Assembly (NCBI GenBank): GCA_947372535.1
Contig: CANBUA010000257.1
Span: forward strand, 1 to 6,775
Length of the DNA stretch: 6,775 nucleotides
DNA from: Burkholderiales bacterium
GTDB lineage: Bacteria > Pseudomonadota > Gammaproteobacteria > Burkholderiales > Burkholderiaceae
Reading direction: 5' to 3'
Part shown: piece by piece, positions 2,758 through 6,775 of the stretch
Layout of the letters: each line of letters opens with the position of its first letter
How positions within the stretch are numbered: position 1 is the stretch's first letter
Program-made: the position numbers and the translations under genes
The notes under the pieces: model-generated
The model's input: only the letters and a program-made list of their open reading frames with translations
Told to the model about the DNA's origin: nothing
Database searches by the model: none

Positions 2758-2759
2758 AC
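2733..2759. promoter_or_regulatory. Inverted repeat over the putative rpoB -10 and start site
   Basis: Perfect 8-bp arms GTCGGTTC (2733-2740) and GAACCGAC (2752-2759) are separated by 11 bases. The dyad overlaps the -10 hexamer and the expected transcription start. A third CGGTTC lies at 2721-2726, a direct copy 14 bases from the one at 2735-2740. This arrangement resembles an operator with an extra half-site, but no regulator can be named. If the region is read through from upstream, it would also form an RNA hairpin. Confidence 0.4.
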
Positions 2760-2786
2760 CATATTACCACCGATTTGGCCAGTCAA
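2758..2786 (-). promoter_or_regulatory. Candidate sigma70 promoter for rpoB
   Basis: On the minus strand a -35 hexamer TTGACT (2786-2781, 5 of 6 to consensus) is followed after 17 bases by TATGGT (2763-2758, 4 of 6). An overlapping alternative -10, TAATAT (2766-2761), has a 14-base spacer, shorter than usual. It is the best match I see in the gene-free stretch before rpoB. A promoter is expected here because a strong terminator follows rplL. No transcript data support it. Confidence 0.5.
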
Positions 2787-2835: not shown

Positions 2836-2893
2836 GGCTCTGTGGCTCTGTGGCTCTGTGGCTCTGTGGCTCTGTGGCTCTGTGGCTCAGTGG
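2836..2893. repeat. Octanucleotide tandem repeat (GGCTCTGT)n, seven copies
   Basis: Six perfect copies of GGCTCTGT (2836-2883), one copy with a single change (GGCTCAGT, 2884-2891) and a partial GG. The variant A at 2889 makes the TGA stop of the minus-strand mini-lipoprotein gene. Because 8 is not a multiple of 3, every minus-strand frame encodes the same eight-residue cycle ATEPQSHR and contains no stop. The array begins about 50 bases upstream of the putative rpoB -35. Arrays of this type commonly vary in copy number by strand slippage; variation here is inferred. Confidence 0.9.
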
Positions 2894-3060
2894 CCGCTGG
2901 TTTCGCGGCTGAGTTCGTCCTGGGCGCGGCCGGCGCGGTCCAGGCGATCGGGGATGCCCGCACGGCCATCGTCGGCCGGAGGGGGCGAGCTGCAAGCGCT
3001 CAGCGCGGCGCCGGCCAGCACGGCCAACACCAGGAGAACACGGCGGAAACGGGGCGTCAT
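2887..3060 (-). CDS. Mini-lipoprotein, 57 residues, function unknown
   Basis: A small predicted lipoprotein. The sequence shows a basic N-terminus (MTPRFRR), a hydrophobic stretch (residues 8-20) and the lipobox LSAC with the acylated cysteine at residue 23. Ser at +2 suggests delivery to the outer membrane by the usual +2 rule. The mature part is only about 35 residues, polar and charged (SSPPPADDGRAGIPDRLDRA). I chose the ATG at 3060 because AAAGGAG (3073-3067) lies 6 bases upstream and the signal peptide then begins at residue 1. The frame is open upstream to 3141, but that start would put 27 unlikely residues first. It begins 20 bases after the preceding gene's stop, so it looks like the last gene of the lipoprotein operon. 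The stop codon sits inside the octanucleotide repeat. I do not recognise the family. No terminator was found after it. Confidence 0.75.
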   Translation of the reverse strand: MTPRFRRVLLVLAVLAGAALSACSSPPPADDGRAGIPDRLDRAGRAQDELSRETSGH

Positions 3061-3080
3061 GGTGGACTCCTTTCTGCAGC

Positions 3081-3689
3081 TCATGGCTTGGACTTGACGA
3101 TTTCTGCTGCCAGCTCGTCCTGGCCTTGCTTGGCCTGCCACTTCTGCCAGGCGGCCTCGTCGTTCTTCATGCTGGTCATGATGGCCTTCTTGGCATTGGC
3201 TGCAGCGGTCACGGCATCCAGGCCCACATAGACGTAGAAGGTGCCCTTGGGGCTGGTGGCACTGCGGAAGACCTTGGAGCCGGAGATGTTTTCCGCGGTG
3301 ATCTGCTTGGTCACACTGGTGTTGGTGCGGTCAACGGTTTCCTTGCCCACGGCGCCCGTGGTTTCGGCGAACTGCTTGATCATGCCGGTCACATAGGTGT
3401 TCATGTTCTGGGCGAGTCGGAAACGGGCCGACGCCGTGGCTTGGTCACGCACGAACGCCACTCCGGCCGCCGATTTCTCGAACGAGCCCATGGCGCCCAC
3501 CGCCACACCGTCCACCGGCGCATCGCAGACCCACAACGGAGCGGGATCCTGAGGCGAATCGGGGTAGCCGCATTCGGTGATGGCCTGTGCCGGGGGCTTG
3601 CTGCCGCAACCGACGAGTGCGATGGCAGTCAGGGCCAGGGCGAGAGGCGCCAGCATGGCGCTGCGCGAAAGGCGAGTAGATGGGCTCAT
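3081..3689 (-). CDS. LPP20-like lipoprotein, 202 residues
   Basis: A predicted lipoprotein with signal peptide residues 1-27 and lipobox LVGC, Cys28 being the acylated residue. Gly at +2 is compatible with outer-membrane sorting. The mature part resembles the LPP20 fold: a PLWVC stretch around Trp53, then GVAVGAMGSF (61-70), an Ala-rich helix with RDQATASARFRLAQ (81-94), a further helix, and a strand-like GTFYVYVGLD (149-158). The C-terminus is a charged helix. Cys40 and Cys55 flank PDSPQDPAP and could form a periplasmic disulfide. The ATG at 3689 is preferred because AAGGAG (3703-3698) lies 8 bases upstream and gives a normal signal peptide. An in-frame GTG at 3719 overlaps the previous gene's TGA, but would add ten residues and has no comparable site. 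It lies 26 bases after the preceding gene. The family call is by eye. Confidence 0.85.
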   Translation of the reverse strand: MSPSTRLSRSAMLAPLALALTAIALVGCGSKPPAQAITECGYPDSPQDPAPLWVCDAPVDGVAVGAMGSFEKSAAGVAFVRDQATASARFRLAQNMNTYVTGMIKQFAETTGAVGKETVDRTNTSVTKQITAENISGSKVFRSATSPKGTFYVYVGLDAVTAAANAKKAIMTSMKNDEAAWQKWQAKQGQDELAAEIVKSKP

Positions 3690-3715
3690 GGTGTGTTCTC
3701 CTTGTTTGGCCTGAT

Positions 3716-4777
3716 TCACTTGATTTGATCGACCTTGTCGGCCAGCTTGTCCAGAAAGGTCTTCGGGCGGTGCTTCTGCTTGACCAGATCACCACGGTGG
3801 ACCTTGGGCACGTCGCCCTCATCATCCAGGGTGATCCAGGCCGACGCATCGGCGAATTGCATGGGCGCCACGGTACCGGTGCCCACCAGGATTTCTTCGT
3901 GCGCGGGCGCCGACTTCAGCAGGGTGGCGTCGTTGGGACGCAGGGAGTAGATCTCCACGCGATCGCCTGGCTGGAGGCCATCGGCCTTGCCCACCGAGAT
4001 CTGGAAGGCAGAGGTCTTGCGTTCGTTGTGGATGCGGCGCTGAACGATGTAGCCCTTGCTGGAAAACAGGTTGAGCAAATCCGGTGCGGCACTGCGGACG
4101 GCGTCGTCCGCGGCCTGGCCCAGCAAGGCGGTGCCAATGGTGTGGTTGGCGGCCTGGCCCGCGTCCGTCACGCTGGCCGAACCCCGACCGTTCACGGTTC
4201 CCAGCAGGCGCAAGGTGGGCAGCTCATAGACACGCACCACGGCCGACACGTTGGCGACGTGCTCATAGCCGGCAGGGCTGGCCGCCAGCTTGGCCAGCAG
4301 GGTCGCCCCCACCGGCGCCGTGGCCGCGTGGTAGACCGCAGCATAAGAGCTGTTGAGCACCGCCGGCTTGATCGCGTACTTGGCCACCTTGGGGCCTGCA
4401 TAGGTGGCGCCCGAACCGGTGTTCAGCGCTTCGGCCTTGCGCAAGGATTCGTCCAGGTTCGGGGCCAGCGCATCGTCCACGATTTCGATGTTGCGGCTGC
4501 CCAGCAACTGCTCGACCGCCTTGGTCAACTGCTTGCCCAACTGCGCCTGACGCGCCAGGCTGAAACTGCCATCCACACCATCGACCACCACCACCTTGGT
4601 GTTCTCGCGGTCCTCGTTGACGAGGGGCATGACCTCGGCATCGAGCAGGGGAGCGGCCACATAGGCCGAGGCGTCTTTGAGGGTCGGGGCAGACGAACAG
4701 GCCGACAGGGCCAATGACATCAGCGCGGCAGCCGCGATTGGCCAGTGGCGGCCCACCAGGGGCGAGGACGTGGACAT
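3716..4777 (-). CDS. CsgG/LpoB-like lipoprotein with FlgT-like C-terminal region, 353 residues
   Basis: A predicted lipoprotein: MSTSSPLVGRHW, a hydrophobic segment, then lipobox LSAC with Cys27 and Ser at +2 (outer-membrane type). Residues about 60-235 look like the CsgG/LpoB/FlgO alpha-beta fold: strand TKVVVVDGVDG, helix QAQLGKQLTKAVEQLL, strand NIEIVDDAL, then KVAKYAIKPAVL, VSAVVRVYELPTLRLLGTV and a closing Ala-rich helix (221-239). Residues about 255-335 (ISVGKADGLQPGDRVEIYS, later VGTGTV and VHRGDLV) resemble the C-terminal domain of FlgT, a small beta-barrel. The tail is basic. The frame is open to an ATG at 4810, but that start lacks a ribosome site; GGAG upstream of 4777 (10-base spacer) and a shorter n-region favour 4777. 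It lies 70 bases after the LPP20 gene. CsgG and LpoB act at the outer membrane (secretion pore, PBP1b activator). Which of these roles applies is unknown. Confidence 0.85.
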   Translation of the reverse strand: MSTSSPLVGRHWPIAAAALMSLALSACSSAPTLKDASAYVAAPLLDAEVMPLVNEDRENTKVVVVDGVDGSFSLARQAQLGKQLTKAVEQLLGSRNIEIVDDALAPNLDESLRKAEALNTGSGATYAGPKVAKYAIKPAVLNSSYAAVYHAATAPVGATLLAKLAASPAGYEHVANVSAVVRVYELPTLRLLGTVNGRGSASVTDAGQAANHTIGTALLGQAADDAVRSAAPDLLNLFSSKGYIVQRRIHNERKTSAFQISVGKADGLQPGDRVEIYSLRPNDATLLKSAPAHEEILVGTGTVAPMQFADASAWITLDDEGDVPKVHRGDLVKQKHRPKTFLDKLADKVDQIK

Positions 4778-4847
4778 GGGACTCAGACTCCGTGGGTTGA
4801 ACTCGATCATGGTCGGGCTGGATGGCGGGGGCGCACCCCGGCCAGTT

Positions 4848-5906
4848 TCATCGCTGGGTTGACTGAACAGACAAGGGCTGGATCCCCAGCGCGGCCAGGA
4901 GGCCCCCTGCGCGCAAATCCTGCTGCAGTTTCATCACGGCTTGCTGGCGTGCCGCCTTGGCGTCGGTGCGGGAAGCGCCGTTGATGACGTGCTCACGCGC
5001 CGACAACACCGTGCCCCGCGCGCCCTTGAGGGTGAGCTTGACGGACAACTTGGCCAGGGCGTCCTTGCCGAACTGGGAATCCTGCTGTCCCACCGTGACG
5101 TCCAACGTGCCTTGAGATGCCGAGGCTTGCTCGGTCAGCTTGAGCCCTTGCTCGGTCAGCAAGGCGGAGACCACCCCCTTCACATCGGCATCCACCGCAG
5201 CCGCCTGGACCATGAGCACCAGACGGGATGCTGCTGCGTCGGCATCGGCCAGACGCTGCTGCAGATCGCTTTGTTTTGCCGAATCTTCACGGCTCAGGTC
5301 CAGGGGCTTGAACAACATGTACAGCCCCTGCTGGGCGGCCAGCAGAGGGCGAGCGCGCTGCAAGGCGATGTAACGATCCAACGGGCTCGCACCCGTTCCG
5401 GCCAGCAACTGGCTGGTGAGCAGGTTCATGCGCTGGATGCGGTCTCGCGTGTCAGCCAGAAAAGCCTGACGATCCACCTTGACCAGGGCATACACCCCGG
5501 ACGGCGCCGGCGCCGATTGCACCAGGGTGTACTGCCGGAATTCGGTCTTCTGGATCTCGGACATCAAGGAACTGGACGCGGAACTGTCCACACGCCCGTT
5601 GGCTTCACTGACCTGGCTGCGCACGGAGCCCGACACGCTCACCCGCAGCTTGCTGGCCACATCGCGCAGCGCCAGGCGGGTGGCGGTGCCCACGTCCAGG
5701 CCTTCGCCCACACCGTACATGGCATCGTCGGTGTCACCGGGAGGGCTGACCATCCAGCTGGGCACTTCTGCCGCCGACGGCGTCGACTTCATCGTGATGC
5801 AGGCGGACAACATCAGCAGGGACAGCCCAAGCGCCACCCCGCTCAGGTTCCGCAGGGCCGATCGGGGCGCAAGCGCACGGAAACACAGCACGTCAAACGC
5901 CCTCAT
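4848..5906 (-). CDS. LPP20-family lipoprotein, 352 residues
   Basis: First gene of the lipoprotein block. The signal peptide ends in LSLLMLSAC, with the lipidated Cys at residue 36 and Ile at +2, so outer-membrane placement is expected. Residues about 49-155 match the LPP20 pattern by eye: PSWMVSPPGDTDDAMYGVGEG, then LALRDVASKLRVSVSGSVRS and a strand pair ending GVYALVKVDRQAFL. LPP20 proteins include H. pylori Lpp20 and Vibrio FlgP. The remaining 190 residues hold a helical stretch (157-225, partly coiled-coil-like) and a second alpha/beta portion (about 228-335) ending in an Ala/Gln-rich helix, so the protein is longer than a simple LPP20 protein. I chose the ATG at 5906 because GGAG (5916-5913) lies 6 bases upstream. 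An ATG at 5918 in the same frame would add MESG and has no clear site. Operon with the next three genes is likely. The exact role is unknown. Confidence 0.87.
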   Translation of the reverse strand: MRAFDVLCFRALAPRSALRNLSGVALGLSLLMLSACITMKSTPSAAEVPSWMVSPPGDTDDAMYGVGEGLDVGTATRLALRDVASKLRVSVSGSVRSQVSEANGRVDSSASSSLMSEIQKTEFRQYTLVQSAPAPSGVYALVKVDRQAFLADTRDRIQRMNLLTSQLLAGTGASPLDRYIALQRARPLLAAQQGLYMLFKPLDLSREDSAKQSDLQQRLADADAAASRLVLMVQAAAVDADVKGVVSALLTEQGLKLTEQASASQGTLDVTVGQQDSQFGKDALAKLSVKLTLKGARGTVLSAREHVINGASRTDAKAARQQAVMKLQQDLRAGGLLAALGIQPLSVQSTQR

Positions 5907-5968
5907 CCCAGACTCCATCCCGTTTCAATTGATTCACACCTGACCATGAGGTGCGACCTTGGCTGGCG

Positions 5969-6035: not shown

Positions 6036-6066
6036 AAAAAAAACCGCCTCTGTGCGAGGCGGTTTT
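6036..6066 (-). terminator. Rho-independent terminator after rplL
   Basis: On the minus strand a perfect 11-bp stem AAAACCGCCTC/GAGGCGGTTTT (6066-6056 with 6050-6040) encloses a 5-base loop and runs into eight consecutive Ts (6043-6036). It starts about 40 bases past the rplL stop codon and should end the rplJL transcript before the lipoprotein genes. On the plus strand it is followed by only four Ts, so it is directional. Confidence 0.93.
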
Positions 6067-6106
6067 CTGGCGGGCCGCCCGAAGGCAGCCCAGGCAACCA
6101 AGTGAA

Positions 6107-6535: not shown

Positions 6536-6775
6536 TCAGGCGGCCGGAGCTTCTGCGGCCGGGGCTTCTGCAGCCTCGGCGGGGGCGGCTTCGCCACCAC
6601 CCTTTTGTTCGCCCAAAGCAGCCAGGACGCGTGCCAGACCCGAGATCGGCGATTGCAGCAGGCCACAGATCTGGGCCAGCAGCACTTCCTTGCTCGGGAT
6701 CGAGGCCAGGGCCTTGACGCCATTGGCGTCCAGGGCCTTGCCGGCGTAAGCGCCAGCCTTGATGACCAGCTTGTC
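6536..6775 (-). CDS. rplJ: 50S ribosomal protein L10, C-terminal 79 residues (start lies beyond the right edge)
   Basis: L10 anchors L7/L12 dimers to the 50S subunit and, with them, represses its own operon by binding the rplJ leader (outside this window). The visible part begins [20 protein letters not shown] and continues [20 protein letters not shown], typical of L10. The following [17 protein letters not shown] belongs to the C-terminal helix that binds L7/L12. The protein ends in an Ala/Pro/Glu-rich tail ([21 protein letters not shown]), partly a 15-base DNA duplication. Such low-complexity tails occur in other L10 proteins. The stop TGA is at 6538-6536. The position just before rplL is the standard order. 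Confidence 0.97.

Follow-up and report, generated by a model that had tools for sequence, protein, structure and literature searches.

A candidate outer-membrane lipoprotein operon between rplL and rpoB in a member of the Burkholderiales

The contig CANBUA010000257.1 of Burkholderiales bacterium (assembly GCA_947372535.1), whose 6,775 nucleotides are referred to here as the window, carries a block of four putative lipoprotein genes, designated A to D, in the interval between rplL and rpoB (Table 1). All genes are encoded on the minus strand in the order 3' end of rplJ, rplL, A, B, C, D and rpoB, where the name rplJ is presumed from position and general knowledge of the cluster. In agreement with the first-pass annotation, which had described four closely spaced lipoprotein genes on one strand in about 3.6 kb, the rplL-rpoB gap amounts to 3,590 bp, with intergenic distances of 70 bp (A-B), 26 bp (B-C) and 20 bp (C-D) inside the block and of 188 bp (rplL-A) and 370 bp (D-rpoB) at its flanks. 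The start of gene A set by that annotation at 5906 is an in-frame ATG but the second one, since the frame also opens at 5918. The window shares the order and strand of rplJ, rplL and rpoB with the ordinary rplJ-rplL-rpoB-rpoC cluster, and the annotated Escherichia coli rpoB matches the window DNA at 69.8% (query bases 385-2504). The RpoB sequence appears in keeping with the Burkholderiales label. In E. coli NZ_CP134805, by comparison, the gap between rplL and rpoB spans 319 bp. Compared with E. coli and with one published statement, the position of the block is unusual, and none of the papers listed in searches of an open-access library describes, in its title or the opening of its abstract, lipoprotein genes inserted at the rplL-rpoB junction.

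Table 1. Genes and other features of the window, with the evidence for each.
Feature	Coordinates	Strand	Evidence or remark
rpoB, first 838 codons	3..2516	-	open frame; truncated at window end
Promoter-like site TTGACT-17-TATGGT	2758..2786	-	5' of rpoB; 9/12 matches
Octamer tandem repeat GGCTCTGT x 7.4	2836..2894	.	Tandem Repeats Finder, 98% matches
Gene D, small (57 amino acids) putative lipoprotein	2887..3060	-	ribosome site and lipobox
Gene C, Lpp20-type lipoprotein	3081..3689	-	PF02169, 34.8 bits (cut-off 25.9)
Gene B, lipoprotein with predicted CsgG/PelC/FlgT-middle-domain fold	3716..4777	-	11-protein family; structure model; Foldseek
Gene A, HP1454-like lipoprotein	4848..5918	-	LPP20 (SHS2-like) domain, helical linker and predicted C-terminal PelC/LptE/CsgG-like domain; second ATG 5906
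Intrinsic terminator-like hairpin and run of eight T	6036..6068	-	between rplL and gene A
rplL, ribosomal protein L7/L12	6107..6484	-	PF00542, E 5.5e-27; PF16320, E 5.7e-17
rplJ (ribosomal protein L10), C-terminal part	6536..6775	-	open frame 5' of rplL; truncated at window end

Homologues, the G+C content at third codon positions (GC3) and codon usage all attest that A, B and C are genuine genes. GC3 reaches 0.80, 0.84 and 0.80 in A, B and C, respectively, compared with 0.84 in rpoB and 0.74 in rplL, and 0.81 in D over 58 codons. Codon usage correlates with that of rpoB at 0.86 (A), 0.72 (B, the least alike) and 0.91 (C), while the correlation falls to 0.26-0.56 over the six shifted frames of the three genes and to 0.76, 0.56 and 0.61 in the antisense frames of A, B and C, each below the value of its own gene. 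The proposed resemblance of the block to its neighbours in composition is borne out by these figures. A lipobox-like motif, identified by a permissive pattern, is present in all four genes and reads LSAC in both A and D; among aligned family members, the window proteins counted, it is kept in 13/13 A, 11/11 B and 43/44 C proteins. The residue that follows the lipobox cysteine bears on the membrane destination of a lipoprotein, and since aspartate occurs at this +2 position in none of the aligned A, B and C proteins, the sequences point to the outer membrane as the destination of all three products.

A and C are related to the Lpp20-type lipoproteins through LPP20 domains that, like the gene anatomy and the lipoboxes, are directly legible in the sequence. 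The PF02169 (LPP20) profile matches all 44 aligned members of the C family at a relaxed E value of 1, and the C profile matches the structure 5ok8, titled Lpp20 (HP1456), at E 1e-10. This family is broad, comprising 524 proteins, one of which is named Sideroxyarcus among the 120 matches listed. In gene A, PF02169 scores 26.8 bits, barely above the curated cut-off of 25.9, and it matches 13/13 members of the A family at a relaxed E value of 10. The profiles of A and C align with each other (93.6%, E 2.1e-7), a relation that is not apparent in BLASTP (E 9.2). Moreover, comparison of domain architectures matched A to HP1454, and not to FlgT, along the whole chain. The structure model of A comprises an SHS2 and a CsgG-like domain with no third domain recognised; residues ~228-344 are predicted to adopt the CsgG/PelC/LptE fold at a sequence identity of ~10-18% in the structure matches, and confidence is low at residues 91-120, the region where an insert of the FlgP type would lie.

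Gene B, on the other hand, is assigned by predicted structure. Its model is of limited overall confidence (predicted local distance difference test score, pLDDT, 60.8), with residues 58-239 well modelled and residues 253-341 below 50. The well-modelled part, residues ~58-239, probably adopts the CsgG/PelC/LptE fold, again at ~10-18% sequence identity in the structure matches, and Foldseek aligned the model with 8z5n (2.7e-7) and FlgT 3w1e (4.3e-7). The B protein of the window belongs to no Pfam family; it lacks a match to PF02169 and, up to an E value of 10, to FlgO (PF17680). Among the 11 members of the B family, FlgO matches weakly in four (best E 0.037) and FlgT_C in one (E 0.062), while LPP20 matches in none. 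In NCBIfam, B is likewise without a match, and A, C and D match below cut-off only. As an observation in its own right, A and B would both hold a CsgG/PelC-like domain by predicted fold, though a comparison of the two profiles gave no convincing evidence of relatedness in sequence (4.5%).

Homologues of A and B were sought among 5.8 billion database proteins, of which ~8,000 candidates were scored for each. Besides the window proteins, the searches yielded 12 relatives of A, with identity down to 38%, and 10 of B, with identity down to 46%. Seven of the 10 B contigs are equal in length to one of the 12 A contigs; with 17 C rows entered, equally long contigs were found for A and C in four cases, for B and C in four and for all three genes in three. 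In addition, one B relative and one C relative bear consecutive locus tags (RI907_2188-2189). Hence, A, B and C appear, on indirect evidence, to stay together in relatives, and we read the block, equally indirectly, as an old unit of a narrow lineage. The view of the first-pass annotation that the arrangement is settled is thereby upheld for the unit itself. Two scans of species genomes (one genome per species, short contigs excluded) gave 45 and 29 pattern matches for B, none of which was confirmed; at least one of the two patterns used in the second scan is present in 11/11 B family members. Plasmids contained no match for A or C at the limits used and seven weak partial matches for B, the best at E 0.3. 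PF02169 had no match in one Sinorhizobium plasmid record, a result rendered uninformative by 14 control genomes that had none either. No relative of A, B or C was confirmed in viral contigs. Separately, one viral rpoB fragment match was observed, and eleven viral contigs (L004-L014) encode stretches related to L7/L12 with 42-68% identity in the best segment.

A recent mobile-element insertion was rejected: the five Pfam-scanned proteins contain no transposase, integrase or other mobile-element family, no tRNA or tmRNA gene was found in the window, and composition resembles that of the neighbours. Both the absence of a tRNA and, within the scanned proteins, that of a transposase or integrase had been noted before. 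An old insertion event is still conceivable.

With respect to transcription, the terminator-like hairpin between rplL and A is pronounced: the folded segment 6030-6070 has a minimum free energy of -20.4 kcal/mol (z -7.26), and 0/200 shuffled sequences folded as well. The consensus terminator scan did not list this hairpin, nor did it list a coding-strand terminator between D and rpoB. The sole Rfam match, RNAI over 6036-6106, was dismissed (24.5 bits against a threshold of 47, E 0.28). Upstream of rpoB lies the single promoter-like site of the window, which is no more than expected by chance as shuffled sequences give 0.7 per window, and the promoter scan found none 5' of gene A, so that a promoter belonging to the block itself is an assumption. 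An imperfect palindrome at 2562-2591, 46-75 bp 5' of the rpoB start codon, may form a leader hairpin. Taken together, we infer that the block is transcribed separately and that transcription of rpoB is at least partly independent.

Among characterized systems, the lpp20 operon of Helicobacter pylori offers a close comparison, for HP1454 and HP1456 (Lpp20) are described in one operon (PMC11756786). An HP1454-like protein (A) and an Lpp20-like protein (C) are likewise encoded together in the window: the Lpp20 homologue C lies on the strand of A at short distances, with B between them. Here, the candidate operon differs by the intervening B, a lipoprotein of predicted CsgG/FlgT-middle fold, and by its position between rplL and rpoB. 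We know of no counterpart of B in the H. pylori lpp20 operon; H. pylori does possess a small lipoprotein, HP1455. The block is a variant on the Lpp20/HP1454-type lipoprotein operon to which a partner of predicted FlgT/CsgG fold has been added. Outer-membrane lipoproteins of the CsgG/PelC/LptE type resemble B (~58-239) and A (~228-344) in predicted fold, but no curli, Pel or Lpt genes were recognised in the window.

In the explanation that we favour, with somewhat better than even confidence, the block represents a lipoprotein operon of the outer membrane that is resident between rplL and rpoB, corresponds to the lpp20 operon of H. pylori supplemented with FlgT/CsgG-fold and small lipoproteins, and has a proposed scaffold role. 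According to this scheme, the products would be lipidated and targeted to the inner side of the outer membrane. There, they would form a periplasmic scaffold or ring that supports the envelope and might encircle a large machine, for example the flagellum. A promoter of its own would drive the operon, while rpoB would be transcribed partly by read-through and partly from a separate promoter.

An unlikely alternative holds that the block is a true H-ring-like flagellar accessory (FlgO/FlgP/FlgT) of this lineage. The LPP20/SHS2 fold is common to FlgP and FlgT according to PMC12222027, and the fold of the middle part of Vibrio FlgT is predicted for both B and the C-terminal domain of A. The same source assigns a beta-hairpin insert between the SHS2 helix and the second strand to FlgP only, and C appears to lack such an insert, aligning to Lpp20 without a long one. 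Furthermore, the Pfam signals for the Vibrio proteins are weak in the B family and missing from the window B, A corresponds to HP1454 rather than FlgT along its chain, and no flagellar neighbours were recognised in the window. In a survey of Gammaproteobacteria (PMC6375700), FlgO, FlgP and FlgT were reported to co-occur with Na+-driven stators.

It is quite improbable that the gene order is partly an assembly artefact, in which the block was joined to the rpoB leader via the octamer array at 2836-2894. This 59-bp array, which exceeds in length every other tandem repeat listed for the window, would be a natural place for such an error, and the window A, B and C each derive from one contig of 6,775 bases, so that the junction is not corroborated by a second assembly. 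However, an ordinary short read is longer than 59 bp, the two sides of the seam resemble each other in GC3 and codon usage, and the rplL-A junction is free of repeats of at least 18 bases; even if the octamer seam were real, the block would still follow rplL. Apart from this question, the stop codon of gene D falls inside a degenerate octamer unit with six exact units 3' of it, and a changed number of exact units would alter the spacing to rpoB, leaving gene D intact. Little credence is likewise given to a placement that links outer-membrane assembly to the growth-rate control of rpoB, as the first-pass annotation had envisaged. The block does lie on the same strand between two growth-related genes, and no coding-strand terminator was listed between D and rpoB, though by the very scan that missed the rplL-A hairpin. 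This idea is not supported: the hairpin that separates rplL from A resembles a strong terminator, which weakens a growth-related link without excluding it; the 370-bp rpoB leader with its promoter-like site, itself at chance level, also speaks against it.

Should the favoured lpp20-type operon prove to be a ring or scaffold operon fixed in the ribosomal protein/RNA polymerase cluster of an uncultivated lineage, which we regard as distinctly unlikely in this full form, rpoB would be uncoupled from the stalk genes and partly read together with an envelope machine. If the whole lineage has the split cluster, it would provide a natural test of whether expression of the stalk proteins and of the polymerase must be linked. 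Moreover, an HP1454/Lpp20-type pair outside Helicobacter, accompanied by a partner of predicted CsgG/FlgT fold, would constitute a second setting for these little-understood proteins.
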